This document shows, one piece after another, positions 1,613-47,502 of a stretch of 54,641 nt of DNA. The notes beneath the pieces are model-generated. The model saw nothing but the letters and a program-made list of their open reading frames with translations. It ran no database searches and was not told where the DNA came from. Made by a program: the position numbers and the translations under genes. How positions within the stretch are numbered: the first letter of the stretch is position 1; each line of letters opens with the position of its first letter. The stretch is taken from NCBI GenBank assembly GCA_036569045.1, contig DATCRI010000041.1:1-54641 (forward strand), in the 5' to 3' direction. This DNA comes from Chthoniobacterales bacterium (lineage in GTDB: Bacteria > Verrucomicrobiota > Verrucomicrobiia > Chthoniobacterales > JAATET01).

Positions 1613-1632
1613 CGTCAATCGCCCAGCCCTCG

Positions 1633-1650
1633 TTTCGTTTCAGAACGAAA
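1633..1650. promoter_or_regulatory. Perfect 7-bp inverted repeat upstream of the cyclase gene
   Basis: The sequence is TTTCGTT-TCAG-AACGAAA, a perfect dyad of 7-bp arms around a 4-nt centre. It lies 20 bp before the cyclase-ATPase start codon, where an operator or autoregulatory site would sit. It has no T-tract on either side, so it is not a convincing terminator. No promoter boxes could be assigned with confidence in the 222-bp gap 1613-1834. Confidence 0.35.
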
Positions 1651-1746
1651 GGCACTTCTGCCGAATTTCCTGTCGTAAGAAAAGCCCATCCAATCTCTCG
1701 AGAACAGAATCCCCCGCACGGAGAATCACGCGGTCGATAAAGAGGG

Positions 1747-1761
1747 ATCCTGTTTCAGGAT
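1747..1761. other. Short hairpin ATCCTG-TTT-CAGGAT between the EPS run and the cyclase gene
   Basis: A perfect 6-bp inverted repeat with a 3-nt loop, 74 bp past the end of the last minus-strand gene of the EPS run. On the minus strand it is followed by CCCTCTTTAT, a weak pyrimidine tract. It could be a poor intrinsic terminator, but the stem is short and this is tentative. Confidence 0.2.
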
Positions 1762-1834
1762 TTGGAATGTGTGTTTTATTTTCCACCACAGAAACAGTTG
1801 TCTGGTATTTATCTGGAATCGATCCCCTGTCAAT

Positions 1835-2650
1835 TCACGAAATGCGCTGCCGCCGAATTTCCCGCATTTTGGTCTGAATGAGGAATTCGTAGATCGCAAG
1901 CATGGCGGTGTAGGTGAAACCTGGTCGACCTTCGAGAAATCCGCCACGAAGCAGGTAGGTGTAAGTGAAGCGAATCAGCGGCCAGAACGGAATCCGACTG
2001 ACCAGCGGTTTCAGCGCCTTGTTGCGGAGCGAGGCGTTCCGGGTGAAAACGTCCCTGATCCCGCCGGATGCCGCCAGCCGATCGCGCGCCTCCAGCGAGG
2101 AATAGCGATTGTGCCGATCAATCCAGGCGCTCCATCCCTTACTGAATCCGAAATGCAAATAAGGCTCGCGGATCCAATCGAGTCGGCCCTGCACTTCGCC
2201 CTCCTTCTGGCCGTGACCGGCGTCGATGAATCGCACCCGCCCATTTCGCACCAACCGAAGCTGCCATTTGGGAAAGTTGTCCGCGCGTTTCAGCCAGACA
2301 TCGTCGAGCATCATCTTCCAGCAGCAATAGTATCCCGCCACCTCGGCGGGAGCCTCCGTCATCGCTGCCACCACTGCGGCCTTGAACTCGGGCGTCGCGA
2401 CTTCGTCAGCGTCGAGGAAGAGCGTCCAGCCGTGAGGAAGGCGGTCGAGAGCCCAGTTGCGCTGCTTGCCGAAGGATTCGAAGGGATGCTCCCAGACGGT
2501 GACGCCGTGCTCGGCGGCGATGGCCAGGGTGCGATCGGTGCTGCCGGAATCGAGCACCACCAGGGTGCCCAGCCCCGCTAGAGCCGCCAGACAATTCGGC
2601 AGGTCCCGCTCCTCGTTCTTGGTCAGAACAACGATTGTGAGATCATCCAT
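1835..2650 (-). CDS. Family 2 glycosyltransferase (WaaE/KdtX-like)
   Basis: This 271-aa cytoplasmic GT-A fold enzyme is predicted to transfer a sugar from a nucleotide donor. The N-terminus TIVVLTKNEERDLPNCL is the canonical GT2 start. LVVLDSGSTDRTLAIA supplies the nucleotide-binding Asp, and WTLFLDADEVATPEF gives the DxD-like metal site. The middle section (GKQRNWALD, the WQLRLVRNG region, then YLHFGF) matches the lipopolysaccharide-core subtype WaaE/KdtX, which acts on lipid-linked acceptors. It is the last gene of the long minus-strand run, 41 bp after the acetyltransferase. Family is secure; donor and acceptor are unknown. Confidence 0.88.
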   Translation of the reverse strand: MDDLTIVVLTKNEERDLPNCLAALAGLGTLVVLDSGSTDRTLAIAAEHGVTVWEHPFESFGKQRNWALDRLPHGWTLFLDADEVATPEFKAAVVAAMTEAPAEVAGYYCCWKMMLDDVWLKRADNFPKWQLRLVRNGRVRFIDAGHGQKEGEVQGRLDWIREPYLHFGFSKGWSAWIDRHNRYSSLEARDRLAASGGIRDVFTRNASLRNKALKPLVSRIPFWPLIRFTYTYLLRGGFLEGRPGFTYTAMLAIYEFLIQTKMREIRRQRIS

Positions 2651-2691
2651 GGATTTTCCGAACTTCCTTCCTGTATTTCTTTAACCCTCGA

Positions 2692-3228
2692 TCAGCGGGC
2701 GGGGTTTCCCTTTACGGTGACTCCCGGAGCCACGTTTTTTGTGACAACGGAACAGGCCCCAACGATCGCCCGTTCTCCGATTCGCACGCCTGGCATGATG
2801 AAAGCCCGGGCTCCCAGAAAAACATCCGCGCCAATGTGAATCGGCGCCGTTTGCAGGGGAATCGATGGCAGCGAAAGATCGTGCGTGCCGGTGCACAGGT
2901 AGGCCTCCTGCCCAATGACGGCGCGACGCTCGATGATGACCGGGCCGAGGTTGTAGACATTCGTCCGGTCGCCGATGCTGGCCTCCGCCCCAAGCGTGAG
3001 GTTCCACGGGATCTGGATCCGAGCCCGTTGATGCACGAATGGCGTTCCCTCGATCTGCGCGCCGAAGGTCTTCAGCACGAGCAATCGCCATTTGTAGAAG
3101 GGCTTGGGAGTCCAGATGCAAAGAGCCATCCAGACATATTCCCAGGCGAGAAGGCCGAGCCGTTGGCGCAAAGTCCATGGGGAGGCCCCGCGAGAGACGG
3201 CGGATTGATCGTGCGTCGTCAGCGCCAT
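2692..3228 (-). CDS. WcaF-like hexapeptide-repeat acetyltransferase
   Basis: The 178-aa protein has an N-terminal helical leader and then left-handed parallel beta-helix repeats: IGDRTNVYNLG, IGQEAYLCTGTHD, IGADVFLGARAF, IGERAIVGACSVVTKNV and the closing VKGNPAR. The TGTHDL segment carries the His expected as catalytic base. This is the WcaF/colanic-acid-type acetyltransferase family, which moves acetyl from acetyl-CoA onto a sugar hydroxyl or amino group in the cytoplasm. It sits between two glycosyltransferases with gaps near 40 bp, so decoration of the EPS repeat is the likely job. The acceptor sugar cannot be inferred. Confidence 0.87.
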   Translation of the reverse strand: MALTTHDQSAVSRGASPWTLRQRLGLLAWEYVWMALCIWTPKPFYKWRLLVLKTFGAQIEGTPFVHQRARIQIPWNLTLGAEASIGDRTNVYNLGPVIIERRAVIGQEAYLCTGTHDLSLPSIPLQTAPIHIGADVFLGARAFIMPGVRIGERAIVGACSVVTKNVAPGVTVKGNPAR

Positions 3229-3268
3229 GATACCTCTGCCTCGAAGATGGGATGCAAATCGGAGAAAC

Positions 3269-4417
3269 TCACCGGGTGGATTTTTCAGGCGTCGTTTCCA
3301 GAAGGCTCAGGAAGTCGTTCTCGTATTGGGTGGCGACATTCTTGAGCGAATAAGTTTCGGCGACCTCGAGGCATTTTTGCTGAACCGGGCGCAATCCCTC
3401 CCCAAGCAGCGAGACCTTGTTCAGGACCGCCGCGAGATTGTCGGTGGGGTTGGGCGCGAGCTCGAACGTGAATCCATTCACGCCGTCCTCGAGGTAATCG
3501 GCGAAGCATTTGAGATTCGACACGATCGGAACGCAACCGCTGGCCATCGCTTCGACGGGCGTGAGCGGGGATGCCTCTCCCTTGGCCGCGATCGAAGGAT
3601 AAACCAGCACGTGGGAACTGCTGTAATAGGCCTGCAGTTCCTGCGAGGTGAAAACCGGCGCGCACCATTCGATGGCGCTTCCGAGAGGAGCCGCCCGCTC
3701 CCGCAGGCTCCGGCCATATTCCTCGCCGCCCCCCCCACAATGCTGGGCATCCGGCCCGACGATACGCAATCGCGTCGGGATCCTGGTCATGGCCAGGAAC
3801 TTCTCGAAGGCTTCCAGCAGGATCTCGATTCCCTTCTCGGGATGAATGCGCCCGATGTAAACGATCTCGAAGCGCTCCGGGGTGCGAACGGGAACGGACT
3901 CGGGAATTTCGAAGTCGAAAGGCAGCGAATTCGGAATCATCCGCGCGATCGGTTCCACCTCCGGGGTCTGTTCGACCACCGCATCCTTGATGACGTTCGA
4001 GACCGACTGGAGCCGCGCGACATGCCGGTAGAGCGCCATTTGCCGGCGGGGAAAACGCGCAATGTGGACGTAGATCTTGCCCCGCGAGCGACGGCGCTCC
4101 AGCACGGGCAGCCAGAACGTATTCGTCACGAGGATGTCGGCGGGAGGCAGCCGCGGCACGACCTGCAGGCTGTAGAGCAGGTCGAAGAAATTCGTCCCGA
4201 GCATGCTCTTCGGTCGATCGAAACTCGGGACGCGGCGATGCGTCACGCCATCGATGACTTCGAGATTCGGCAGGCGGGTATCGCAGCGGGAGAAATGGGT
4301 GACCTCATGCCCGCGGGAAACGAATTCCTTGCCCAGCCCGAACCAGACTTTCTCGATGGCCCCGCCATTGAGCGGCGGAACGGGAAAATAGGGCCCTTGA
4401 ACGATGGTTATTTTCAT
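3269..4417 (-). CDS. Family 4 glycosyltransferase
   Basis: The 382-aa GT-B enzyme starts with MKITIVQGPYFPVPPLNGG, whose glycine-rich loop binds the acceptor side. The donor half begins near IVYIGRIHPEKGIEILLEAF. The retaining-GT4 donor motif appears as ASPLTPVEAMASGCVPIVSN, followed by EDGVNGF. The frame is open further upstream, but the ATG at 4417 overlaps the TGA of the preceding gene by 4 bp, has the standard GT4 opening, and is followed by the first family-like sequence. The overlap implies translational coupling. Sugar specificity is unknown. Confidence 0.88.
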   Translation of the reverse strand: MKITIVQGPYFPVPPLNGGAIEKVWFGLGKEFVSRGHEVTHFSRCDTRLPNLEVIDGVTHRRVPSFDRPKSMLGTNFFDLLYSLQVVPRLPPADILVTNTFWLPVLERRRSRGKIYVHIARFPRRQMALYRHVARLQSVSNVIKDAVVEQTPEVEPIARMIPNSLPFDFEIPESVPVRTPERFEIVYIGRIHPEKGIEILLEAFEKFLAMTRIPTRLRIVGPDAQHCGGGGEEYGRSLRERAAPLGSAIEWCAPVFTSQELQAYYSSSHVLVYPSIAAKGEASPLTPVEAMASGCVPIVSNLKCFADYLEDGVNGFTFELAPNPTDNLAAVLNKVSLLGEGLRPVQQKCLEVAETYSLKNVATQYENDFLSLLETTPEKSTR

Positions 4418-5634
4418 GACGGCAAAATGGCGGTTCGGGCAGGCGCAACTTCCCGAATCAATTCGAGGAGGGTGTCGGCCGCGGCGTCGATGTGAAACCG
4501 CTGGCGGAAGCATTTCACGGCGTTTTCGGCCATGCCGGACTTGTCGACGGGAGATAGCAGGGTCCATCGGGAAAGCATCTTGAGCGTCCCCTCCTCGGTA
4601 TCGGCTTCCACCAGACCGGCGGCATCGCTTTCGATCTCGCGCCAGATATTGACCTTGTTCGAGATCAGCACGGGCTTTGCGCAGGCCAGGGCCTCGACCA
4701 CGGCGATGCCAAAGTTCTCCTGGTGACTCGGGAGGACAAACGCCTCGCTCCGGCGAAACGCGCCCCATTTGAGATCTCCCCGCAGCATCGGCAGAAAATG
4801 CACCACGGGAGCAGATCCTCCGGGGACGTCCTTCCCGTTCCCGATTTCGAGACCGAGGGAACGGGCCAGGGATTTCAATTCGGCGAGGTAAGCCTCCGAG
4901 AACGGCGGTCCCGCGATCACGAGCGGTGCGACGTTTTTCGAGTCGGATTTCGTGAGGGCGGCATATCCGCGCAAGAGCAGATCCACGCCCTTCTTTTCGT
5001 GCAGACGGCTCAGGAAGAGCAGGAACGGCTTTTTCGTCAGCGCCGGATATTCGCCGTCAAAGGCCGCGCATTGCGTCGCCACGTCCTCCGGCGGACTGAC
5101 GATGCCGAGCCCGACCACCCGCTCCGTGCAGCGATAGGGTCGAAACGTATCGCGCGCCAGCAATCGCTCCTCCTCGCAGGTGAAGCACACCGCGGCCGCG
5201 TCGCGAATGACGTGGTTTTCGAACAACGCCCAGTAAATCGCCTTCTTCAAGTGCTTCGCGGGATAATGCGTCTTGAACCAGGGGTCCAGCATCCCGTGCG
5301 GATACACGAGGTAGGGGCAATTTCCGCGTAGCGTCCACCAGACAGCCAGCCCGGGAAACTTCCACAGGCCATTGATGATCACAATGTCATAGGTCGCGCG
5401 GTTCTTTCTGAGCCACGAGGCCAGCGTGCGACTGAAGGCAAACCCGCCGGCATTCCCGCCAAGGCCGTGCCAGGTGCCGGCAGTGGTTTGCAGCCAGGGA
5501 GCTGTCGGCGGATCGAGCGTCACGACGGAAACCTCATGCCCGCGGGCCTCGTGCGCGTCCACGAGGTTTCGAATGGCCTCGACGGGGCCTCCGGCCGATG
5601 GATCGGCCGAGTCGATGACATGCAGGATTTTCAT
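4414..5634 (-). CDS. Family 4 glycosyltransferase
   Basis: The 406-aa GT-B protein opens with MKILHVIDSADPSAGGPVEA, typical of GT4 enzymes. Its C-terminal nucleotide-sugar half contains FLLFLSRLHEKKGVDLLLRG and the signature HQENFGIAVVEALACAKPV with the paired Glu residues. The sequence resembles EPS glycosyltransferases that add hexoses to an undecaprenyl-linked chain on the cytoplasmic face. It overlaps the next gene by 4 bp and lies 49 bp after the preceding GT4. Donor and linkage are not predictable. Confidence 0.88.
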   Translation of the reverse strand: MKILHVIDSADPSAGGPVEAIRNLVDAHEARGHEVSVVTLDPPTAPWLQTTAGTWHGLGGNAGGFAFSRTLASWLRKNRATYDIVIINGLWKFPGLAVWWTLRGNCPYLVYPHGMLDPWFKTHYPAKHLKKAIYWALFENHVIRDAAAVCFTCEEERLLARDTFRPYRCTERVVGLGIVSPPEDVATQCAAFDGEYPALTKKPFLLFLSRLHEKKGVDLLLRGYAALTKSDSKNVAPLVIAGPPFSEAYLAELKSLARSLGLEIGNGKDVPGGSAPVVHFLPMLRGDLKWGAFRRSEAFVLPSHQENFGIAVVEALACAKPVLISNKVNIWREIESDAAGLVEADTEEGTLKMLSRWTLLSPVDKSGMAENAVKCFRQRFHIDAAADTLLELIREVAPARTAILPS

Positions 5635-36520: not shown

Positions 36521-38584
36521 TTAGTAGTAACCCGGATAGGCGAGCTGGCGGCCGGGCAGGCCGTTCAGCACCACGTTGGCGCGGGGATATTTCGCTTCGC
36601 TGAGGCTCTTGATCGCCCGTTTCAGGATCGCCTTGGGCGTCGAGAAGGCGCGGACCACGAGGCAGCAGGCGTCGACGTAGGGCAGGACGAGGTAGGTGTC
36701 GCTCACCGCGATGCACGGGGCAGAGTCGATGACGACGCGGTCGTAGTTCTTCATCGCCTTCGTCAGGAGCTCGCGGAACGCCGAGGTGGAAAGCAATTCC
36801 GAGGGATTGTCCACGAGACGACCGGCCGTGAGCAGCGTGAGATTCGGAACCTCGGTGGGACGGGCCACGCTCTCGAGCGGAGAGGTGCCGGCGAGGACTT
36901 CGGCGAGGCCGGCCTCCGTGTCCTTCGTCGAGAACAGGCGAGCCAGCGTGGGCTTGCGCAGATCCGCGTCGATGAGAAGCGTGCGCAGGTTCTGCTGCGC
37001 GAGGGTCACCGCGAAGTTCGAGCTCGCGAAGGTCTTGCCTTCGTTCGGGATGGAGCTCGTGAACAAGAACACGCGGCGCTGTTTGGCATCCCCAGAGTGC
37101 TGAACCGTCTGCGACGCGCGCAAAGTTCGGAACGCCTCCGCGGCCTGGCCACGGCGAACATTGAAGGCGATGAGGTCCGTCTTGCCCTTGATGAGCGGGA
37201 CGGTGGAGACGACCGGAAGACCGCTGATCTTCTCGGCCTCGTCGACAGACTTCACCGAACCGTCGAGCATGTGAAGCCCCACGGCGATGGCGATTCCGAC
37301 GACCAGGCCACCAACCAGGCCCATTCCGATCGTCTTGATCGCGCTCGACGACCGCATCGTGGACTCGTCCGCAAGCTGGTGAATCTGCACCGGGATGCTG
37401 TTGAAGGCCTTTGTCATGTCGACTTCCTTCAGGCGCTCGAGGACCGAGGCATACATCGCGCTGTCGCTGTCGATTTCGCGCTTCAAGGTGTTGTATTCGA
37501 TCGACTTGGAAGAGACCTGCAGCAACGAGTCCTCGTAACCGGCACGAACCTCCTTCATCTGTGCCAGCTGGGCCTCGGTCTGCTTCTCGGTGATCTCGAG
37601 AATGCCGATCATGCTCTTCAGGATCTCGTTCCGCTCGTTGACCGTGAAATCGAGATTCCTCTTGGCCTCGATGTAGACAGGATGCTTCGGCCGTTTGGTC
37701 TGGGAAATCTCGTTGAGATTGCGCTCCTGCTCGGAGATCGAGGCCGTGAGAGCGGCCACGCGAGGCTCGTTGGCCACACTGGGAAGGCGGAGAAGCTCTT
37801 CCGGTGAATCGGCGCTCACCCGGGCGGCGGCCAGATCTCGCCTGATCTGCAACACCTGCTCCTCGAGGGCGGCCATGCGCTTGGCCGCGTCGTTGAGTTT
37901 CAGCTGCGCTTCCTCCTGCTTCGCATCAAGGGAGGGAGTGCGCTCCTTCTCGCGAAACTGCTGCATCTTCGCGTCCGAAAGTTTCATCTTCTCGCGAAGC
38001 CGGGCGGCTTCATCGACCAGAGACTGGTTGGCCGACTGGGTGGCATTCGTGCGCTGCTCGACGATGAAGGCGACGTATTCCTTGGCGTAACTATTCGCGA
38101 GGAATTGCGATTCGCGGGGATCCCGGGTCGTCACGAAGATGTCCAGCAGCTTGGTATTCAGGCGGTATTGCGCCTTGACCATGGAATTCAGGATTCGCGC
38201 GGCGCGCTCCACCGAGAGCGACTTGTCATCGATTCCGGCTGCGCTGAGAAAATCCCGATCCGTGTTCAGATGGAGATGCTCCACGATGCGCTGGGCGAAG
38301 GAATAACTGATCAGGCCGTCGATCATCGTGTTGATCATTTCGGCGTTCTGAAACTGCCCTTCCACCACCGGCTTCACCGTGTCGAGGACGCGGTTCTGAT
38401 CGTCGGCAATCATAAGCACGGCGCGCGCTTCGAACGTCGCGACCTGCTTGCTCACGAGGACCGCGGCGATGACTCCGCCAACGATGACGGTGAGAACGAG
38501 AAGCCAGAGACGCTTGAGGACCGCGTCGAGGTATTCTCTCCAGTTGAAGGAGATCTCCTGATTTTCTTCGTCTTGTGTTGCCAT
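36521..38584 (-). CDS. wzc: Wzc-like polysaccharide co-polymerase with C-terminal tyrosine kinase (BY-kinase)
   Basis: The 687-aa inner-membrane protein has a Wzz domain at the N-terminus with TM1 (LWLLVLTVIVGGVIAAVLVS), a long periplasmic coiled coil rich in Lys, Glu and Gln, and TM2 (TIGMGLVGGLVVGIAIAVGL). The cytoplasmic kinase holds IPNEGKT (Walker A) at about 512-518, LLIDADLRKP (Walker A') at 536-545 and RVVIDSAP (Walker B) at 616-623. The tail is short, LAYPGYY, with only three Tyr, where Wzc usually has a cluster. It sets chain length and couples assembly to export, with oligomerisation governed by autophosphorylation. A cognate phosphatase gene is not in the run. Confidence 0.92.
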   Translation of the reverse strand: MATQDEENQEISFNWREYLDAVLKRLWLLVLTVIVGGVIAAVLVSKQVATFEARAVLMIADDQNRVLDTVKPVVEGQFQNAEMINTMIDGLISYSFAQRIVEHLHLNTDRDFLSAAGIDDKSLSVERAARILNSMVKAQYRLNTKLLDIFVTTRDPRESQFLANSYAKEYVAFIVEQRTNATQSANQSLVDEAARLREKMKLSDAKMQQFREKERTPSLDAKQEEAQLKLNDAAKRMAALEEQVLQIRRDLAAARVSADSPEELLRLPSVANEPRVAALTASISEQERNLNEISQTKRPKHPVYIEAKRNLDFTVNERNEILKSMIGILEITEKQTEAQLAQMKEVRAGYEDSLLQVSSKSIEYNTLKREIDSDSAMYASVLERLKEVDMTKAFNSIPVQIHQLADESTMRSSSAIKTIGMGLVGGLVVGIAIAVGLHMLDGSVKSVDEAEKISGLPVVSTVPLIKGKTDLIAFNVRRGQAAEAFRTLRASQTVQHSGDAKQRRVFLFTSSIPNEGKTFASSNFAVTLAQQNLRTLLIDADLRKPTLARLFSTKDTEAGLAEVLAGTSPLESVARPTEVPNLTLLTAGRLVDNPSELLSTSAFRELLTKAMKNYDRVVIDSAPCIAVSDTYLVLPYVDACCLVVRAFSTPKAILKRAIKSLSEAKYPRANVVLNGLPGRQLAYPGYY

Positions 38585-38630
38585 AATATTAACTTTTGGG
38601 TGCTTCGAGTTTCGAAATTCGGCGGGTTAC

Positions 38631-39428
38631 TTAATACCAGCTCTCTCCCACGCTAATGACGTCTCCGGCGACGATCTCCATCGGCGCTGCCGAGGAGTCG
38701 ACCATCTTCTTGGCGTTGATCTTAAAGGTCTGGGCGGTGCCTCCGCTGCCGCGTTTGACCATCACGTTTCTTTTGTCCGCAATGCGGGTGAAACCGCCGG
38801 CCATGCCGATCGCCTCGATGAGATTGATCCCCTCTCCGCTGTTCAGCGTGTAAGTGCCGGGATTATTAACCTGCCCAATGATGGTAAACTTCCGCTCCGC
38901 AAACTTCGTGACGCCGAGGGAAACCTGGGGCTCTACGAGATAGTCCGCGTTGTAACGATCGCGGATGAGGTTGCGGGCCTGCTTGATCGTCAATCCCGCC
39001 ACCTTGACGTCGTTGATGAGGGGAAATTGCACCGTGCCGTCGCGGGAGATCGTCGCACGGGTTGTGAGGTCCGACTCCCGGAAGATCGACATCTCAATGG
39101 AGTCGTTTGGCGTCAGAACATATTCACTATCCGTGGTTTGCATCGCGGTCGCCGGCGCAACGGGCAGGGCCGCCCGAACTTCCGGCTGCATGAAGACACT
39201 TCCCGGGGTCGCCACGGGCGAAGCGCTGTCCGTCGCGGTAGCCGAGGCCGTCACGGGAGTCGGAGTCGGGATCGTCTTGGAGAGGGCGCCCGCCTGGTTG
39301 ATTTCGTCGGGTCGAAACGGCTGGGAGAATGTCTGGGCGACACTCGGACGCGCTCCCAAAAGCGCGGCGATCACGGCCGAGGCCAGCACGGCCCGGGTGG
39401 AGATCCGATGAATAAGGGTGGTTTTCAT
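38631..39428 (-). CDS. Wza-like outer-membrane polysaccharide export (OPX) protein, short form
   Basis: The protein is 265 aa from ATG 39428. The N-terminus has a Sec signal (AVLASAVIAALLGARPSVAQ) with no lipobox Cys. A low-complexity Thr/Ala/Pro linker follows. SEYVLTPNDSIEMSIFRE starts the polysaccharide-export domain, and RKFTIIGQVNNPGTYTLNSG the single SLBB domain. It ends at VISVGESWY, just after SLBB, and so lacks the C-terminal helix that lets E. coli Wza span the outer membrane. Forms like this need a separate barrel, and the gene 10 bp upstream encodes one. It is 46 bp before the BY-kinase gene. Confidence 0.88.
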   Translation of the reverse strand: MKTTLIHRISTRAVLASAVIAALLGARPSVAQTFSQPFRPDEINQAGALSKTIPTPTPVTASATATDSASPVATPGSVFMQPEVRAALPVAPATAMQTTDSEYVLTPNDSIEMSIFRESDLTTRATISRDGTVQFPLINDVKVAGLTIKQARNLIRDRYNADYLVEPQVSLGVTKFAERKFTIIGQVNNPGTYTLNSGEGINLIEAIGMAGGFTRIADKRNVMVKRGSGGTAQTFKINAKKMVDSSAAPMEIVAGDVISVGESWY

Positions 39429-39438
39429 GTGACTTAAC

Positions 39439-40947
39439 TTAGTAGGTGAAGGTGAGGCCGACATTGGCCCGGACTTGCGGAGAAGAGGATTGGCCATCCC
39501 GGTCGGATCCGATCCAGAGAAGGCCGTTGAGGAAAACCCAGTCCTGAATGCGGTAGGAAAGACCGCAGCTCACAAAGGCAAAATTCCGAGCCTGATTCTG
39601 ATTATCCGTCACGCCCTCGGCGTCGTTCGTCGTGCCCACGTAATCCCATTGCTCGAAGCCTCCCGAGAGCGTGACCTGCGCCCGACTGAAAAAGGTCTGC
39701 GCGATGCTGGCGGCCACACCGCGGGTCACCCGGGCCTGCGAGGTCAGCACCGTCGAATATTCCTGAGTCTGGTAAACATTGATCGCGAACGACGTGTTCA
39801 GGCGAGGTTCCCAGGTCCATTGGAAGTTGAAAGACGGGCGAAGGTCGGTGCCTTCCATTCCAAGACTCGCGGACGCGGAGGTCTTTTCCGTGATCTGATA
39901 GCTGGCCTTCACGCGATAGGCGGGACGGAAGCCCACTTCCTCGGCTTCACCGCCACCGGTGCCACTGACATACCGGCAACCAATTCCGGCGGAGATGTTC
40001 AGTTTGGGGGTCGGCTCGTAAATGACGATTCCGAGAATCTGGCCGTATTGGCGGGATTGATTGGAGTTCTCGCTCAGTCCCTGCGAATCCTGCCCGGCGC
40101 CCAATTCCAGCCGAAACCGGGTTTTGCCGGTCCACGCATAATCCGCGTAAGCCTTGCCCTCATAAGCTCCGAGGGTGCCGGTCGGGGACGTTTCGGTTTG
40201 AGAAATGATATCCTGGCTGGCAGAAAGCGAGCCGCCGATCTTCGCGTCCTCGGTCAGCTGGTAATCTCCCGTGAGGGAGCCCGTCCAGCTCAGCTGAGTA
40301 TCGTTCTGACCAGACTCGATATTGAAACCACTGCCATAGGACAGGCCCGCATTGGCCTGGATCGTGTAGCGGCTTCCCTCGAGACCAAGGAGGAGCGATG
40401 CCGTGTTCTGAAACGGGTTATCGCCGCCGCCGCCACCCGAAGAATTGTAATTCGGATCCGTGTAAAACGTATAGCTGCCGCTGTAGCGCGCATCCACCGT
40501 CCAAGGGCCAACTTCTCGGAAATAACCGACGGTCAAAGCCGGGACGATGAAAGCGCTGTTGTTGGACGATTTCTTTCCCTCAGTGGCGTCGGCATTCTCG
40601 TCCGAATATTCCCAACCCAAAGTTACCGCCGGGTGAACAATCACGGGGCCGAGACGAAGGCCCATTCCCGCAGATCCTTCCTCCTGAGCCGCCGCGGCCG
40701 TCCGAAGAGCCTGAAGAAACCCTGCCAGACCCCGCGTGTCGTCAGCCTGATAAATCGAGGAAGGCAACGTTCCGCGATCGGCCGGCTCCCCCACCCAGCG
40801 GTAGCGAAACACGGCCTGCTCCACCGTCGTCGGCGCAACCGTCTGCGCGTTCGCCGCAAGCATCGGAACCAGAGCGATCAGAAAAACGCCCCAGAAGGCC
40901 CCCCGTCCCGGGAGGACTTCGATCGAGGACTTCGAGTGGGCGGACAT
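39439..40947 (-). CDS. Outer-membrane beta-barrel protein, putative polysaccharide porin
   Basis: The protein is 502 aa from ATG 40947, chosen because it puts the hydrophobic stretch FWGVFLIALVPMLAANAQT at a normal distance for a signal peptide. ATG 41052 would add 35 residues and the frame stays open as far as 41817, apparently by chance in GC-rich DNA. The mature part is alternating polar/aromatic beta strands with Gly/Ser/Asn loops (for example YSGSYTFYTDPNYN). It ends in RANVGLTFTY, with the terminal aromatic recognised by the Bam machinery. Position next to a Wza-like protein that lacks its own membrane segment suggests the two form the outer-membrane export channel. No ribosome site is clear. 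Confidence 0.72.
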   Translation of the reverse strand: MSAHSKSSIEVLPGRGAFWGVFLIALVPMLAANAQTVAPTTVEQAVFRYRWVGEPADRGTLPSSIYQADDTRGLAGFLQALRTAAAAQEEGSAGMGLRLGPVIVHPAVTLGWEYSDENADATEGKKSSNNSAFIVPALTVGYFREVGPWTVDARYSGSYTFYTDPNYNSSGGGGGDNPFQNTASLLLGLEGSRYTIQANAGLSYGSGFNIESGQNDTQLSWTGSLTGDYQLTEDAKIGGSLSASQDIISQTETSPTGTLGAYEGKAYADYAWTGKTRFRLELGAGQDSQGLSENSNQSRQYGQILGIVIYEPTPKLNISAGIGCRYVSGTGGGEAEEVGFRPAYRVKASYQITEKTSASASLGMEGTDLRPSFNFQWTWEPRLNTSFAINVYQTQEYSTVLTSQARVTRGVAASIAQTFFSRAQVTLSGGFEQWDYVGTTNDAEGVTDNQNQARNFAFVSCGLSYRIQDWVFLNGLLWIGSDRDGQSSSPQVRANVGLTFTY

Positions 40948-41936
40948 CGCCGTATTGGAAATCAAGCAGGAGGGCTTTCCCTCGACGAAATCGAGCCTCT
41001 CGCTCCGCGAGCAAATCGCTTTCAGCGCTCCAACCATTCGCTTGTTCTTCATTGTGATTTGGCTCGCCGCGTTCCAGACAGGTCCTCGACCTGCCCCACC
41101 GCGCTCGTTCCGTTTTATGTTGTTTTTCAATCCGTTCGGGAGGGTGCCTCGGGGCCAGATTTTGGAAAAATGCTGCCGCCCTTGGTCAATCGCGGTCCTT
41201 TCCGCGAAACCTTCCAAATGTGACTCAGGCGCTTCGTTCAGGACCCGAAGCTGTGGCCCTGGCAGATTCCCAAGCAATCCGGTAGATGCCCGCTTGGGTG
41301 CGCTGCCAGGCGCTATGTCTCTCGTTACAACAAAAAACTGGAAGAACCCGTGATCCCCCGACTGAGCAGCCCTCCGCACAAGACTTCGCTTGAGACGGCC
41401 CCGATCGGCGATGTTGGTGTTCCTTGAGTGATTCTCACCAAATTTTCCAATTTCGTGTTTTCTACCGCAAAGGATACGGACAAGGCGAGCAAACTTGCAG
41501 AAAAAGTGAATCTTTTTGACCTCCATAGAGACAGTTTGCGAAATTTCTCTGTTAAGAGGGCCGAAAATACGCGTGCCAGGAGACTTCCGAAGCCGGACGA
41601 CTCCCTGATCGAGTCCGCGCCAACTGACAATCTCGCTGCCAAATCGATGCCGGAAGCGAGCATTTGCGTGTGGGCACGGCCATTTCCCCTCGTATACGCC
41701 CGCACTTTTGCGAAATTGACCAAAAATCTTTGAGGCGTCCGCGGCACCTTGTCCGTTTTTCACCACAAAATCCGGCATTCTTCTCTGTAAAGGATGCGCA
41801 TGCATCTTTTTGATCACAAGCGCGTCACTTTTTCCTCACTTTCTTCGCAAGTCCGCAATTCCCGCGCGTATAGCTCGAGAAGAATACCATCGGAGAGAGC
41901 CCCTGGCCTCCCGGTGTCGTTGCTCAGGGAATCGCA
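40948..41936. other. Gene-free ~1-kb divergent regulatory interval
   Basis: This separates the long minus-strand run from the plus-strand transferase pair and is far longer than any other gap. It is less GC-rich than the genes, with several T- and A-rich patches near 41440-41520 and 41700-41830. Reading frames on both strands (for example 41428-41733 plus) show no family features. Promoters for both directions should lie here, but no sigma-70 or sigma-54 pair was convincing. TATAGC at 41869-41874 is a weak -10 candidate for the plus strand. Confidence 0.5.
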
Positions 41937-42842
41937 ATGAAAACCATCACTTATCGCCTCTTAAAATTCACGAATCGCAACTCGGTCTCCAGTCTTCGAC
42001 TCGAGCCCAAGGCTCCGGAGCGTCGCATTTCGCGTCCGGCCCGGACCACTCCCCTTCTCGGGATCAAGTTTTTCGCCGGAACCTTTGACGAGGCCATCGA
42101 CAAGCTGGCCCACGGCGGCGGATTGTCCGTCTTTCCCTCCGGCCCCGGCATCGCGCAGGACATGCGGAAGAGCGAAGCCTATCGTCAGGCGCTCCAACAG
42201 GCGGATCTGGCGTTCGGCGACAGCGGCGCAATGGTTCTCCTGTGGCGCATGCTCACGGGCGGCCGGATTCCCCGCTACTCGGGACTTCGCGTGCTTCAGG
42301 CCGTGATCAAGCATGAGGAATTTCGGAAGCCGGAAGCCACGTTCTGGGTGATGCCGTCGGCCGACCAGATGGAGCACAACCTGAATTGGCTGAACAAATC
42401 CGAGGGAATCCTCGTCGATCAGGACGCCTGCCACATCGCGCCGCAGTATTCCTCGGAAGGCTTTCTCGAAGACCCGGACCTCGTTGCACGCATTGAAAAG
42501 GCCCGGCCAAAATTCGTGGTGCTGTGCATCGGCGGCGGCGTGCAGGAACGGCTCGGCCTCCATCTGCGGAACAGTCTCTCGTATCGTCCCACGATCCTCT
42601 GCATCGGCGCGGCCATCGGCTTCCTCACCGGCGTGCAGGCGCACATCCCGACCTGGGCGGATCGCGCCAAGCTCGGGTGGCTGGTTCGCTGCATCGATAA
42701 TCCCAAGGTGTTCGTGCCGCGTTATCTGGGCGCCCTCAGCCTCGTGCAGGTGTTGGCCCAGCATTGGTTCAGTGGCAAGATTCCCGGTCCGGTCAAGGAG
42801 GAGTTCTCCGACGAGGCGATTGGCGAAATGTCCGAAGCGTAA
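41937..42842 (+). CDS. WecG/TagA/CpsF family glycosyltransferase (GT26)
   Basis: The 301-aa protein follows AGGGA 7 bp before the ATG. LLGIKFFAGTFDEAIDKL is the family start, ADLAFGDSGAMVLLWRML holds the conserved D-x-G block with its catalytic Asp, and KFVVLCIGGGVQERLGLHLR is the G..xQE block. ILCIGAAIGFLTG and AHIPTWADRAKLGWLVRCID follow, the usual C-terminal membrane-binding portion. These enzymes add ManNAcA or a similar sugar to an undecaprenyl-pyrophosphate-linked first sugar. It is followed 6 bp later by the initiating transferase, so the pair probably makes the first disaccharide of the chain. Confidence 0.9.
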   Translation: MKTITYRLLKFTNRNSVSSLRLEPKAPERRISRPARTTPLLGIKFFAGTFDEAIDKLAHGGGLSVFPSGPGIAQDMRKSEAYRQALQQADLAFGDSGAMVLLWRMLTGGRIPRYSGLRVLQAVIKHEEFRKPEATFWVMPSADQMEHNLNWLNKSEGILVDQDACHIAPQYSSEGFLEDPDLVARIEKARPKFVVLCIGGGVQERLGLHLRNSLSYRPTILCIGAAIGFLTGVQAHIPTWADRAKLGWLVRCIDNPKVFVPRYLGALSLVQVLAQHWFSGKIPGPVKEEFSDEAIGEMSEA

Positions 42843-42848
42843 GCGCGC

Positions 42849-44264
42849 ATGGTCTCGAGACGGGTAAAGGGAATCATTCACCTGATCGGCTTGTTTCGGG
42901 TGATCGCCGGTCTGGCGACCTTCTGGTCGCTTTACTGGATCTTCGCCTCCGTTCTGGAGCGCGGCTTCCTCGTCGGAAACGGCGAATACATTCTCTACAG
43001 CACGATCATCGCAGTCGGTCTCGTCTACGATCATCTGCGCACGATGCGGGCGCAGCACAGCATGATCGGCGCGAACCAGCGCGAGTGGAAGCCGCGGGTG
43101 GCCTTCCGCCAGACGTCCATCGTCTTCTTCGTCCTGTTCTTTTACTTCTGGCTGAGTGACGACCGCACCGTCTCGCGCACATTTCTCGTGACCCTCGCGC
43201 CGACGTTGTTCGTCGTGCTGCTCGTATCGAATCGCTACGTCACCTCGTGGCTGATCAAGCGGGCATTCCGCGGGAAATCGATCTTCCGCGTGCTGATCTA
43301 TGCGTCGAAGGACGGAGTGATGAGCGTGCAACGCTGGCTGAACGAGCGCGGCTCGCTCGGCTTCAAGGTCATCGGCATCGCCACCGACGATGCGCCAACG
43401 AAGAGCGAAGTCGCGGGTTTCAAGGTGCTGGGGCAATCCCGCAGCCTCGCGCGCATCCTCGACCATTACCGAATCAATGTCGTCCTCCGCTCGGGGGACA
43501 TGAATGAATCCCGTGAGGAGATGCAGGAACTGCAGAGTCTCTGCGACACGAAGGGTGTGCGCCTCGTGCGATCCTTTCAGATCAACCACGCGCGACGGCG
43601 CCCAATGAGTCTCTGGGAAGACCAGGGCCTCTGCTTTCTCGCGCTGCGCGAAGAGCCGCTGGAAAGCCCGCTCAATCGCATGCTCAAGCGCATCTTCGAC
43701 ATCTGCGTGGCCTCGATCGTTCTCACGACGGTCGTTCCCGCGATCTCGCTCGTCGTGTGGATCTGCCAGCGCTGGCAGTCTCCCGGCCCGCTGTTCTTCG
43801 TGCAGGAACGCTGCGGATTGAACGGCCGGTTCTTCAACATCTGGAAATTCCGCACCATGCGCGTGGAGAATCCCGACGAGACGCAGCAGGCTTTCGCCGG
43901 CGACCCGAGAATCTATCCGGCCGGCCGCATCTTCCGCAAACTGAGCATCGATGAGCTCCCGCAGTTCATCAACGTGCTCCTCGGCGACATGAGCGTCGTC
44001 GGCCCCCGCCCCCACCTCCGCGCCCACGACGACGAGTTTGCCCAGGTCCGCACCGACTACCGCGTGCGCCACCTCATCAAGCCCGGCATCACCGGCCTCG
44101 CTCAGGTGCGCGGCTACCGCGGCGAGACGCGCAACGACCGCGACGTCATCAAGCGCACCCGCGCGGACATCCATTACCTCGAGCACTGGTCCGTCTGGCT
44201 CGACTTTCAGATCGTCGTGCGCACCGCGCTCCAGATGATCAAGGCCCCGAAGACCGCCCTGTAG
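42849..44264 (+). CDS. Undecaprenyl-phosphate sugar-1-phosphate transferase (WcaJ/WbaP/CpsE-type)
   Basis: The 471-aa protein has four N-terminal membrane spans (for example VFFVLFFYFWLSDDRT), then a CoA-binding-like Rossmann part (FRVLIYASKDGVMSVQRWLN). The catalytic C-domain includes NRMLKRIFDICVASIVLTTV, the cytosol-facing re-entrant helix and FNIWKFRTMRVENPDE. LSIDELPQFINVLLGDMSVV and GPRPHLRAHDDEF hold the conserved acidic and Arg residues, and IKPGITGLAQVRGYRGETRN closes it. It would transfer hexose-1-phosphate to undecaprenyl phosphate and so start the polymer. It is the last gene before a clear terminator. Confidence 0.92.
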   Translation: MVSRRVKGIIHLIGLFRVIAGLATFWSLYWIFASVLERGFLVGNGEYILYSTIIAVGLVYDHLRTMRAQHSMIGANQREWKPRVAFRQTSIVFFVLFFYFWLSDDRTVSRTFLVTLAPTLFVVLLVSNRYVTSWLIKRAFRGKSIFRVLIYASKDGVMSVQRWLNERGSLGFKVIGIATDDAPTKSEVAGFKVLGQSRSLARILDHYRINVVLRSGDMNESREEMQELQSLCDTKGVRLVRSFQINHARRRPMSLWEDQGLCFLALREEPLESPLNRMLKRIFDICVASIVLTTVVPAISLVVWICQRWQSPGPLFFVQERCGLNGRFFNIWKFRTMRVENPDETQQAFAGDPRIYPAGRIFRKLSIDELPQFINVLLGDMSVVGPRPHLRAHDDEFAQVRTDYRVRHLIKPGITGLAQVRGYRGETRNDRDVIKRTRADIHYLEHWSVWLDFQIVVRTALQMIKAPKTAL

Positions 44265-44287
44265 CCACTTCAAAATTTTCCCTGGGC

Positions 44288-44338
44288 GCCCCGTGAATTC
44301 GTCTCGATGGGAGAGATTCGCGGGGCGTCTTCTCTTTC
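44288..44338 (+). terminator. Rho-independent-type terminator after the initiating transferase
   Basis: Two arms, CGCCCCGTGAAT (44288-44299) and ATTCGCGGGGCG (44317-44328), pair over 12 bp with one G-U. They are followed by the T-rich TCTTCTCTTT. It starts 24 bp after the stop codon at 44264 and bounds the plus-strand pair. Confidence 0.75.
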
Positions 44339-44415
44339 GGTCCCCTCCGGCCCTGCCCGGTCGCGTCCGGCCTTGCAAACTTCCGTGCCCGGCGCAACAG
44401 TTCATCCTCCGAGCC

Positions 44416-44652
44416 ATGAACGCCGAATCCGCCGCCGACCTGCGCCAGCGCCTGCACGACGGCCTTTGCCAGCAGCTCACGGCCGCTCTCATGTTTTCCG
44501 ACGCGCTGCGCCGCAGCCTGGAAAATCGGGCCGCGCCGGAACTCGAGGATTGCGAGCGTCTCGTGGAACTCCTCCAATCCTCGGCTGATGAGCTTGTCGG
44601 CGTGATGAATCACCTGACCGAGATTCGCGCCACCGCCGAGGCCGAAAAGTAG
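44416..44652 (+). CDS. Stand-alone histidine-kinase dimerisation-like domain
   Basis: The protein is 78 aa from ATG 44416. LRQRLHDGLCQQLTAALMFS strongly resembles the phosphoacceptor helix of HisKA_3-type kinases (LHDGLGQQLT), with the His in RLHDG. The rest forms a second amphipathic helix (ELEDCERLVELLQSSADELV) that would complete the helical hairpin. No HATPase domain, sensor or membrane span follows, and the gene stops at 44652, just before a convergent gene. It could be a phosphotransfer partner, a dimerisation inhibitor or a relic. A start further upstream has no family-like sequence. Confidence 0.65.
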   Translation: MNAESAADLRQRLHDGLCQQLTAALMFSDALRRSLENRAAPELEDCERLVELLQSSADELVGVMNHLTEIRATAEAEK

Positions 44653-44661
44653 GCCCCGCCG

Positions 44662-45366
44662 CTAGCCGGCCTCACCGAGAACCTTCAGATACGTGCGGTC
44701 GACGATCTGGTGCGTCTTGGGATCGTAGGTTTCCACGCGCATCGTTTTCAGCATCCACTTGCCGTTGATCTTCTGCGGCGAGATCACCTTGAAGCGCTTG
44801 AGAATGCGTCCGTCCATGCCGTAGCCCTCGATCTGCAGGGCCGCGCCGCTTTCCTCGTCGATCCACAACCGGGCGACGCCGTATTGGGATTGCCCACGCG
44901 GCGCCTGCACCTCGAGTTTCCACGCCTTCCGCACGCCCACCATTTCCTCGCCGAGCAATTTGGGGCGCGGCCAGTAAAGGAAGCGCAGCGCGAGGTCTTC
45001 GAAGGTGATCGGGGTGCCGCGCACCTTTTCGTCGTAACGGGCCGGCTTGATCTCGGACGTTTTCCCGCCCTTGCGCTCCCGCAATTCCGAGGAATCCTCG
45101 CCGAGCACAAGCTGGATCTGCTGGTCCGGATTCGTGAATGTGTAGCTCACCACGCCGTTCTCCAGCGCGAGAATGAAGGGCGTCTTTCCGGCATCTCCGC
45201 TCAACTCTCCGCGAAGCGTTTCCTGCTGGCTCATCGGGCTCAGGCGCGCCGCCCGGAGGATCTCGTCCGCACTGGGAGCTTGCGCCGCCCGTCCGGTCAT
45301 CGCGCCGGCGGCGAGCAGCAGGACGGAGAGAAGGACGCTCGAAGCTTGAGTGGGACGGAGATTCAT
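44662..45366 (-). CDS. Outer-membrane lipoprotein-sorting (LolA-like) periplasmic protein
   Basis: The 234-aa protein has a Sec signal (SVLLSVLLLAAGAMTGRAAQ). A beta-rich fold follows, with FILALENGVVSYTFTNPDQQ, ARLWIDEESGAALQIEGYGM and ILKRFKVISPQKINGKWMLK. This layout is that of the outer membrane lipoprotein-sorting protein family related to LolA/LolB, which carries a hydrophobic ligand in a half-barrel. It is convergent with the small helical protein (9 bp apart) and divergent from the PAP2 gene, 34 bp away. The cargo is unknown. Confidence 0.8.
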   Translation of the reverse strand: MNLRPTQASSVLLSVLLLAAGAMTGRAAQAPSADEILRAARLSPMSQQETLRGELSGDAGKTPFILALENGVVSYTFTNPDQQIQLVLGEDSSELRERKGGKTSEIKPARYDEKVRGTPITFEDLALRFLYWPRPKLLGEEMVGVRKAWKLEVQAPRGQSQYGVARLWIDEESGAALQIEGYGMDGRILKRFKVISPQKINGKWMLKTMRVETYDPKTHQIVDRTYLKVLGEAG

Positions 45367-45400
45367 TGGAAGGTGGGCGGAATATCCCGCCCATCGCTCG

Positions 45401-46048
45401 ATGGATCAACGCATCTTTTTTCTCATCAACGGGCACTGGGCCCATCCGGCGCTCGACCTGCCCATGGCAGCGATCTCGAGCTGGGATTTCTGGTGGCCGA
45501 TCGCCCTCGTCGGCGGCCTGCTGTTGCTGGCCTTCGGCGGTTTTCGCGGCCGTGCGGCGCTCGTCTGCATTGGCCTCACGGTCGGTCTTACCGACGGCGT
45601 GATCGTTGACGCCATCAAGGGCAACGTCGGCCGGCCACGTCCGCATCAGGTGCTCGAGGGCGTGCGCATCGTCGACCTTCAGAAGGCGCGCCCGCGCTTG
45701 CTCGCTCTCGGCAAACCCGCCAAGGTCGAATACTCCAGCCCGTCGATCCAGCCCGTGCGCGGCATCTCGTTTCCCTCCGGCCATGCGTCGAACAACTTCG
45801 CGCTCGCCGTCGTTCTCGCCGTCTTCTACCGCCGCTGGGGCTGGCTCTACTTCCTGCCAGCCTCGCTCATCGCCTACTCGCGCATCTATACCGGCTCTCA
45901 TTATCCGTCCGACGTCATTGTCGCCGCCTTCATCGGGGCGGCCCTCGCCTGTCTCGTGCTCGCGGCGGCAGAGGCGATCTGGCGTCGATTTGCCGGTCGC
46001 GTCGTGCCGCGCCTTTTTGCGGCCCATCCCAGCCTGCTCGCCGGATGA
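45401..46048 (+). CDS. PAP2-family membrane phosphatase
   Basis: The protein is 215 aa from ATG 45401. The three catalytic blocks of the acid phosphatase/phospholipase family are all present: KGNVGRPRP (K-x6-RP), FPSGHAS (PSGH) and SRIYTGSHYPSDV (SR-x5-H-x3-D). About five membrane spans are seen. Members remove phosphate from lipid phosphates such as undecaprenyl pyrophosphate or lipid A. It is joined by an ATGA overlap to the GT39 gene downstream, suggesting recycling of the polyprenyl carrier or trimming of the acceptor. Confidence 0.9.
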   Translation: MDQRIFFLINGHWAHPALDLPMAAISSWDFWWPIALVGGLLLLAFGGFRGRAALVCIGLTVGLTDGVIVDAIKGNVGRPRPHQVLEGVRIVDLQKARPRLLALGKPAKVEYSSPSIQPVRGISFPSGHASNNFALAVVLAVFYRRWGWLYFLPASLIAYSRIYTGSHYPSDVIVAAFIGAALACLVLAAAEAIWRRFAGRVVPRLFAAHPSLLAG

Positions 46049-47502
46049 AACACCTGCCCGCGCTCCTGCTCGTCCTTGTCACGATCGTGCGCCTCTGGGC
46101 CGCCGCGGTCCTGCCGATCACTCCTACCGAGGCCTACCAATGGATGTGTGCGGATCGCCTCGACTGGGCTTTCTTCGACGCCCCCGGTGGCACCGCCGCG
46201 CTCGTCCATGTCGGCTCCCTGTTGCCCGGAAACAGCCCCCTCGGTCTGCGGCTGGCCTTTCCCCTGCTCGCCGCCCTTGCGACCTTCGGCATCTATCGCC
46301 TCGGCCGCGCGTGGTTCGGCTCCGCGACCGCGCTCTGGGCCGCCGTGGCCCTCAACGCCCTTCCGATCTTCAATACCGCCGCGGTGCACGCCGGTCCGGA
46401 AATGCCCACCCTCGCTTTCACCGCTCTCGCACTCTGGCTGCTCGTGCGTGCGCTCGAACGCGGCCTGCCGTGGTGGATTCTCTCCGGACTCTCCCTGGCC
46501 GCCGCCGTCCAGTTTTCCTACGCTTCCCTCGCGCTCATCCCCGGCATTTTTCTCGCCATCACGCTCACCCCGCGCTACCGCGGTCAGTGGCGGCGTCCCG
46601 GCCTTTATTTCCTCGTCCTCTTCGCCGCCGGCGGAGTTGCCAAGGCCCTCCTCTGGAACCAGGCTAACCACTGGCCCGCCACCGCCCTGGGCACCTGGCG
46701 CACGGAATTCACCCCGCAGTGGACCGAAATCCTCCCCGCGCTTGCCTCGAGCATCGGGCAGGTTTCCCTTCCCGCGGCCGCGGTCGCCGTGTTCGCCCTC
46801 GTCCAGATCGTCCGCGCCGCGCGCATTCACACTCGGCCCCGACTGCTCGCCTGTCTTCTCGCCCCCTTCCTCCTGCTCTGGCTGCGCGACATCATGCACG
46901 GCGACTCCGCCACCCTCCCCCTGCTGCCTGTCATTCTCCTGCTCGCGACCGCCGCCACGAATCTCGTTCTCGAGGCAAAAAGACTTCACCGCATCGGCGC
47001 CATCGCCCTCGTCCTCACGGCGGCCACCATCGCCTTCCCGTTTTCCCGTCCGGGCACCCCCTGGAACCGCGTCGCCGACGCCATCAACCCGCTGTTCACC
47101 GAGATCCAAAGCGAATACCCGTTCCCGCTCTTCGTCATCGCGCCCGATCCCGAAGCCACCGCCGCGCTCAGTTACTATCTCTCCCGCTCGCCCAACGGCG
47201 AAACCCGCGAGGTCTTCCTTCGCGAGTCGCAGGATCTCTCGAACCAGTTCGGCCTCTGGCCGCGCTACGACGACTTTGTTCCCGTCAAAAAGGCGCCCGA
47301 TGAATACTTTCAGGAGCTGAAGGCTCAGAACCTCTACCTCGGCCACAGCGCCCTGTATCTCACCGACGAGGAGCCCACTGACCTGCCGCAGACGATCACG
47401 AGCGCCTTCGCCCGCGTCACCCCCCGCGCCACCCTTTCCCTTCCCGGCAATCGCAAATTGCGCGTGTATCTTTGCGAAGATTATCAAACGATGCCGCTCT
47501 AG
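46045..47502 (+). CDS. GT39-type (PMT/ArnT-like) membrane glycosyltransferase
   Basis: The 485-aa polytopic protein has about ten membrane spans. PTEAYQWMCADRLDWAFFDA near the first periplasmic loop matches the family D/E-x-Y motif (here PTEAYQW) used by ArnT and protein mannosyltransferases, and APGGTAALVHVG follows. These enzymes take a sugar from a polyprenyl phosphate on the periplasmic face. The last 130 residues form a soluble periplasmic domain. It sits between a PAP2 phosphatase (4-bp overlap) and a DPM1-like GT2 that could supply its donor. Acceptor is unknown; lipid A or another envelope glycolipid is a reasonable guess. Confidence 0.82.
   Translation: MKHLPALLLVLVTIVRLWAAAVLPITPTEAYQWMCADRLDWAFFDAPGGTAALVHVGSLLPGNSPLGLRLAFPLLAALATFGIYRLGRAWFGSATALWAAVALNALPIFNTAAVHAGPEMPTLAFTALALWLLVRALERGLPWWILSGLSLAAAVQFSYASLALIPGIFLAITLTPRYRGQWRRPGLYFLVLFAAGGVAKALLWNQANHWPATALGTWRTEFTPQWTEILPALASSIGQVSLPAAAVAVFALVQIVRAARIHTRPRLLACLLAPFLLLWLRDIMHGDSATLPLLPVILLLATAATNLVLEAKRLHRIGAIALVLTAATIAFPFSRPGTPWNRVADAINPLFTEIQSEYPFPLFVIAPDPEATAALSYYLSRSPNGETREVFLRESQDLSNQFGLWPRYDDFVPVKKAPDEYFQELKAQNLYLGHSALYLTDEEPTDLPQTITSAFARVTPRATLSLPGNRKLRVYLCEDYQTMPL

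Follow-up and report, generated by a model that had tools for sequence, protein, structure and literature searches.

The domain described here is commonplace, but its form is unusual: a conserved, naturally occurring gene carries the DHp hairpin of a HisKA_3-type histidine kinase and stands on its own. The gene lies in a 54,641-nucleotide stretch of DNA from a Chthoniobacterales bacterium (hereafter the window), which belongs to a 3.43-Mb genome assembly labeled G000. Judged from substitution patterns, the 78-aa frame is a real coding gene under purifying selection, and the domain searches indicate that its product consists solely of a HisKA_3-type DHp hairpin.

Gene, reading frame, and neighborhood

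The gene and its neighbors are listed in Table 1, together with a second locus discussed below. An in-frame GTG upstream of the ATG at 44416 would yield a protein of 119 aa. We preferred the ATG because in the sister genome G002, which belongs to the same genus, only 13 sense codons lie between the in-frame stop and the ATG. Scans for promoters and terminators over positions 44150-44750 found none. Each of the four genomes in the genus has the LolA_like/PAP2 pair, whether or not a DHp gene adjoins it; the family copy in G001 sits elsewhere, next to trpA.

Table 1. Coordinates of the DHp gene, its surroundings, and a second stand-alone hairpin locus
Feature	Position	Strand	Remarks
Stand-alone HisKA_3 DHp gene	44416..44652	+	ATG to TAG; 78 codons / 78 aa
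Exopolysaccharide-type cluster	36521-44264		Large AAA_31 ATPase-domain protein, Poly_export with SLBB, WecG glycosyltransferase, sugar transferase
Sugar transferase (Bac_transf + CoA_binding_3), upstream gene	42849..44264	+	End of exopolysaccharide cluster
LolA_like outer-membrane lipoprotein-sorting protein	44662..45366	-	Convergent, 9 bp from DHp gene end; neighbor in G002 too
PAP2-superfamily gene	45350..46048	+	Next to LolA_like gene
L218 (G022 C163)	274-2216	+	CheB methylesterase, then a lone receiver domain, then the stand-alone HisKA_3 hairpin; contig end

The evidence for coding comes from two pairs of homologues. G002 encodes a 72-aa homologue with 73% identity over 66 residues, which is syntenic with the window gene and likewise adjoins LolA_like and PAP2 genes. 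Over 65 compared codons, pS was 0.75 (about 35 of 46 synonymous sites) and pN was 0.16 (24 of 149 non-synonymous sites), with 15, 8, and 36 changes at the first, second, and third codon positions, respectively; the contrast between pS and pN was weaker in all five other frames. The homologues of G041 and G047 gave a dN of 0.17 and a dS of 0.66. Together, these values show that the gene is coding and under purifying selection.

A 124-aa open frame runs antisense to the gene (44239-44613, minus strand), with a pS of 0.26 and a pN of 0.32 over the 65 compared codons, a pattern unlike that of a coding frame. We rejected a chance or antisense ORF as the source of the 78-aa frame: the opposite strand is open too, yet the substitutions best fit the plus-strand frame.

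Domain identity and predicted fold

Pfam assigned HisKA_3 (PF07730) to residues 13-65 of the 78-aa protein with 26.3 bits against a cutoff of 24, and found no other domain above a cutoff; a HisKA_3 search of the whole genome gave the window gene 25.3 bits. Because the Pfam margin is narrow, we built a separate DHp profile exclusively from the DHp regions of kinase-type sequences, with no stand-alone gene in the training set. Among the 644 frames of the window, this profile scored 44416-44652 at 51.8 bits (E 3.7e-15), and the runner-up frame reached 6.7 bits. When the protein was shuffled 2000 times with its composition kept, the top shuffle reached 11.9 bits, compared with 53.8 bits for the real protein. 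The HDxxxQ motif consists of H14, D15, and Q19 within a phosphoacceptor box of the form [LI]HDxxxQ. Thirteen residues precede the phosphoacceptor His, and no sensor or linker domain was found before the DHp. These data bear out the preliminary description, which had read the frame as a HisKA_3-type DHp lacking a sensor and an ATPase domain.

The AlphaFold2 single-chain model is a two-helix hairpin, with helices at residues 6-37 and 43-77, a mean pLDDT of 84.9, and a pTM of 0.57. The top Foldseek row was 6lgq_C, from a histidine kinase:regulator complex, at a weak E of 2.3, and none of the 57 rows reached E <=0.001; VIA-align gave a Z of 7.4, inside the helical background. Neither fold search pointed specifically to a DHp, which is perhaps no surprise for a plain hairpin. 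A sequence search of the PDB returned 12 rows up to E 10 with no histidine kinase among them, and the sole NCBIfam match was far below its cutoff. The Hpt profile was absent from the Pfam matches up to E 10, where filters remove most weak matches, as was the CheZ profile from the Pfam matches of the protein. The PHROGs match, to a family whose function is unknown, had an E of 0.011.

Evidence against a broken or split kinase

The preliminary description had named the case against itself, namely that in relatives the frame might be part of a larger kinase gene. Homologues in five genomes are instead short and closed, with frames of 85 (G002), 128 (G001), 100 (G047), 107 (G041), and 193 codons (G022); in the four homologues also found as public loci, the frame ends 53-69 residues past the motif. 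We then searched for the ATPase domain (CA, HATPase_c) with a profile built from 96 kinase sequences. Nothing above 4.5 bits appeared in nine stand-alone loci (window 42416-46652 and eight others). All five control loci were matched at 62-141 bits; two of these hold the own-genome kinases C45 and C22, both in the training set, and the three with kinases outside the training set scored 62, 79, and 94 bits. In addition, tblastn searches of the LolA_like/PAP2 site in G003 and in G001 turned up nothing that was convincing as a copy or a remnant. On the short closed homologues, the purifying selection, and the absence of an ATPase domain nearby, we rejected a broken kinase.

We also considered a split kinase whose ATPase domain is encoded by a separate gene. 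With E values of 0.1 or lower, HATPase_c matched 41 times in the genome of the window, 37 times above the cutoff, and a single match falls in a frame shorter than 300 aa (C17:19812, 191 aa). The protein encoded there, 139 aa long, is of the RsbW-like HATPase_c_2 kind; its gene adjoins one for a SpoIIE-type phosphatase, and a STAS gene lies farther on. As the only short candidate is RsbW-like and in a SpoIIE/STAS setting, it is a poor candidate for the missing half.

Distribution and origin of the family

The preliminary description had suggested looking for the same short protein, and its neighbors, in other genomes. It is present in five other Chthoniobacterales genomes; the stand-alone family comprises six genomes (that of the window, G002, G001, G041, G047, and G022) in three families of the order. 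In a family-profile search of 213 genomes of the order, the six stand-alone genes, all themselves members of the profile, scored 105-132 bits among the matches listed, and kinases followed from 53 bits down. Some match at E up to 1e-4 was found in 115 of the 213 genomes. The stand-alone family is rare, with six of 213 genomes of the order among the matches listed. The gene is present in three of the four genomes of the genus, two of 26 in family f7, and one of seven in family f4; in G003 no copy was found at the same place or, as a short frame, elsewhere. Four of the six members pass the Pfam HisKA_3 cutoff, with G001 (21.7 bits) and G022 (13.3 bits) below it.

Wider searches gave a similar picture. 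A scan of 84,980 species genomes for LHDGLCQ[QSN][LI] yielded 65 confirmed loci, 57 of which continue for at least 169 residues past the motif, like full kinases. Two loci end early after long N-terminal parts (L097 and L121), two are cut by contig ends (L081 and L093), and four are short stand-alone genes that match G002, G001, G022, and G047, from the window's own order. Among the matches listed in a class-wide draw of 384 genomes, short frames occurred only in G000, G002, G041, and G047. A phylum-wide draw of 387 genomes gave 16 matches at E up to 1e-8, of which the window's own was the only short frame. A phage origin was considered and rejected, as none of four pattern matches in viral contigs was confirmed.

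Whether the six members share a single origin depends on the alignment columns used; the sequence trees support it when flanking columns are included. The tree with flanking columns grouped the six at 0.969, with a second G001 gene within the clade, and a tree on columns H-9 to H+46 grouped the six alone at 0.924. Trees on H-3 to H+46 or on H to H+44 did not recover a clade of six.

Residues kept and lost in the stand-alone proteins

We aligned the DHp regions of 99 kinase-type rows with nine stand-alone proteins, using the numbering of P0001. The kinase-type rows, collected by similarity to the motif, numbered 101 at first; L097 and L132 were left out because of their short length. Of the remaining 99, three are truncated by a contig end (L081, L084, and L093) and one stops early (L121). 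Leu-His-Asp and the Gln at H+5 are present in nine of nine stand-alone proteins, a count that is biased and not independent because the searches favor the motif and the script's regular expression requires it. The core leucines are mostly kept (L31 in 8/9, L35 in 7/9, and L67 in 8/9), and H+12, the site of DesK Leu200, is hydrophobic in all nine.

The flanking residues behave differently in the two sets. Glu at position 5 is found in 99/99 kinase-type rows versus 2/9 stand-alone proteins, and an acid at H-2 in 96/99 versus 2/9. The linker residues Gly66 (83/99) and Pro69 (77/99) of the kinase-type rows are absent from all nine stand-alone proteins, and Arg61, at the position of DesK Arg235, falls from 87/99 to 3/9, with a Val (V61) in the window protein. 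For the linker motif, a looser regular expression matched 1/9 stand-alone and 97/101 kinase-type sequences, and a second one 0/9 and 97/101. This loss of flanking residues is not demanded by the motif-based selection of the sequences. At the DesK docking positions, Thr at H+8 and Met at H+12 of the window protein fit, and the Arg235 position holds Val. On balance, the residues retained and lost fit direct action on a response regulator somewhat better than an inhibitor on the kinase side.

Other stand-alone hairpins and related proteins

G001 encodes a second stand-alone hairpin, L032, of about 82 aa (HisKA_3, 29.3 bits). A second stand-alone type was found in family f4 only, as L040 in G030 (HisKA_3, 53.4 bits) and L218 in G022 (28.3 bits). 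When the G022 protein of this type was searched against 210 genomes of the order, L040 and L218 were the two best matches and the sole ones above 32 bits, with the first-type members G041 and G047 further down the list. In a short and weak tree, the second type groups with itself (0.995), apart from the first, so the CA domain may have been lost at least twice; on this sequence evidence, DHp hairpins may have been freed from CA at least twice in Chthoniobacterales. In G022, the second-type hairpin is directly downstream of the lone receiver-domain gene, with the CheB gene on the same strand (Table 1). About 65 bp of contig are left past this copy, which taken alone could therefore hide a frameshifted kinase.

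Two further loci hold related proteins. On contig C73 of G001 (L169), a HisKA_3 relative without an ATPase domain (2550-3560, plus strand) has Gln in place of His (LQDEIAQ) and scores 19.4 bits, under the cutoff. A full kinase (3433-4731, plus strand) comes right after it and is followed by a receiver gene, as read by eye; the LQDEIAQ relative and the full kinase are a possible natural heterodimer pair. In the window's own genome, L216 (contig C17, 3231-4679, plus strand) encodes a 482-aa protein with HisKA (28.0 bits), a receiver, and a SpoIIE phosphatase, again without an ATPase domain. It is another CA-less DHp, of the HisKA type, and adjoins an RsbW-like HATPase_c_2 gene, with a STAS gene near.

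Proposed function and alternatives

We tentatively favor, at a little under an even chance, a dimeric free-standing HisKA_3 DHp hairpin whose targets are response regulators and which serves as a DxxxQ phosphatase, a phosphoryl sink, or both. Two copies of the 78-aa hairpin would form the usual four-helix bundle, and this dimer would bind at least one response regulator, probably of the NarL type, at the regulator's receiver domain. The hairpin would remove the phosphoryl group from the receiver aspartate, either through Asp/Gln-assisted hydrolysis, as in NarX/DesK phosphatase chemistry, through transfer to its His as a sink, or through both. As it has no ATPase domain, the hairpin could not load phosphate by itself, and alone it would thus damp response-regulator signaling.

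This proposal draws on studied kinases. According to PMC3510030, the DxxxQ pair is needed for the phosphatase activity of NarX, and the DHp alone of EnvZ or NtrB is a phosphatase whose activity CA raises. In DesK, as reported in PMC5231405, Gln193 (H+5) positions the attacking water, and receiver docking involves Leu200 (H+12), Ser196 (H+8), and an Arg235 salt bridge, at an interface formed mostly by the DHp with a partial contribution from CA; PMC6798134 repeats the HDxxxQ point. The window protein has the D at H+1 and the Q at H+5 of this NarX/DesK phosphatase mode, but in the absence of an Arg at the DesK Arg235 position receiver docking may differ. PMC5231405 also states that NarX phosphatase activity is independent of its His; the kept His of the hairpins thus hints at more than hydrolysis.

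Candidate partners are at hand in the genome of the window. Four HisKA_3 kinases, all with an ATPase domain, are encoded there (C88, C15, C22, and C45), and a gene for a GerE-type regulator lies within roughly 1 kb of each one. A NarL-type regulator that has a receiver and, judged by eye, seems to be an orphan is encoded at C89 (L214). A further GerE-type regulator (L206, contig C10, 988-1695) has a receiver-like part that, by eye, seems to lack the phosphoacceptor Asp. A Pfam scan of 17 neighbor proteins at the loci of family members found no two-component protein, with two of the 17 matchless and the G047 locus inspected by eye only.

The preliminary description had suggested three roles, a phosphotransfer protein, a dominant inhibitor in mixed dimers, or a new small regulator, and each may still apply. 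The hairpin might instead act on the kinase side, pairing with the DHp of an own-genome HisKA_3 kinase into a mixed dimer that, with one ATPase domain, would be less active or phosphatase-biased. The four kinases just mentioned could serve as partners, the core leucines are mostly kept, and G001 offers a His-less, CA-less HisKA_3 relative (L169) right before a full kinase. A pure dimer poison, however, would need no H, D, or Q, yet all three are kept in the (biased) count of nine, the N-terminal stretch of kinase alpha-1 is mostly not retained, and no kinase occurs among the scanned neighbors; we consider this the main rival, though an unlikely one. Less probable still is a phosphotransfer intermediate, a HisKA_3-derived counterpart of HPt, Spo0B, or ChpT that would pass phosphoryl groups from a hybrid-kinase receiver to a final response regulator. 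It would account for the His in nine of nine stand-alone proteins, the same biased count, and is compatible with the ten of 41 HATPase_c matches that lie in frames longer than 1000 aa, possibly hybrids, and with the second-type DHp adjoining a lone receiver gene in G022. That receiver linkage, however, concerns the second type only, at a contig end, and no phosphorelay gene was found beside the six family members.

The patchy presence of the gene, not found in G003, and the sub-cutoff HisKA_3 scores in G022 and G001 could be read as signs of a kinase fragment that is decaying or is left over without function. Strong evidence against this comes from the purifying selection seen in both homologue pairs; the short form shared by six genomes from three families and the absence of ATPase-domain remnants nearby also speak against it, making decay very improbable. 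We attach equally little weight to a helical hairpin recruited outside two-component signaling, for example to envelope or polysaccharide control: the gene does sit at the end of an exopolysaccharide cluster and adjoins LolA_like and PAP2 genes, but neighbors differ in G001, G041/G047, and G022, so the locus is not defining, and the phosphoacceptor motif is kept. The direct action on response regulators described above remains our preferred, if tentative, reading.

Relation to known systems

Hairpins of about 70-105 residues, cut loose from kinases perhaps at least twice in Chthoniobacterales and keeping His-Asp-Gln while shedding the sensor and ATPase contacts, may constitute a small undescribed class of free-standing response-regulator phosphatases or phosphoryl sinks, a possibility that we regard as rather doubtful. 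Among the titles listed by a search of open-licence papers, none was on stand-alone DHp genes. HPt, Spo0B, and ChpT are free-standing, His-bearing helical phosphotransfer proteins, but Spo0B and ChpT carry a pseudo-CA part that is absent from the window hairpin. RocA and FasB/FasC of group A Streptococcus are likewise kinase relatives and act beside a full kinase, but they are longer proteins, whereas the window protein is only a short hairpin. The part of PMC8011034 consulted covers kinase-like and regulator-like proteins of restriction systems and does not describe DHp-only genes.

The closest likeness is to the HisKA_3 DHp of the NarL-partner kinases NarX and DesK, which share the LHD box, HDxxxQ, the two-helix hairpin, and a hydrophobic H+12 with the window protein. 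The difference is that here the protein consists of this domain alone, having lost the E..RR[IL]G[QH][DE] stretch upstream as well as the RGLxP link that joins a DHp to the ATPase domain. Automatic HisKA_3 annotation would suggest a histidine kinase, which the hairpin alone cannot be. CheZ also dephosphorylates a receiver by a DxxxQ pair, as noted in PMC3510030; compared with auxiliary phosphatases of the CheZ/CheX type, the hairpin descends from a kinase DHp and retains the His. A DHp-only gene would provide a minimal object for studies of receiver docking. The isolated DHp domains of EnvZ and NtrB, constitutive phosphatases in PMC3510030, lack CA as the window protein does, but they are expressed fragments of the HisKA type, whereas the window protein is a natural HisKA_3-type gene product known from sequence. 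If our reading is correct, evolution uses the same DHp-only phosphatase trick as these fragments.
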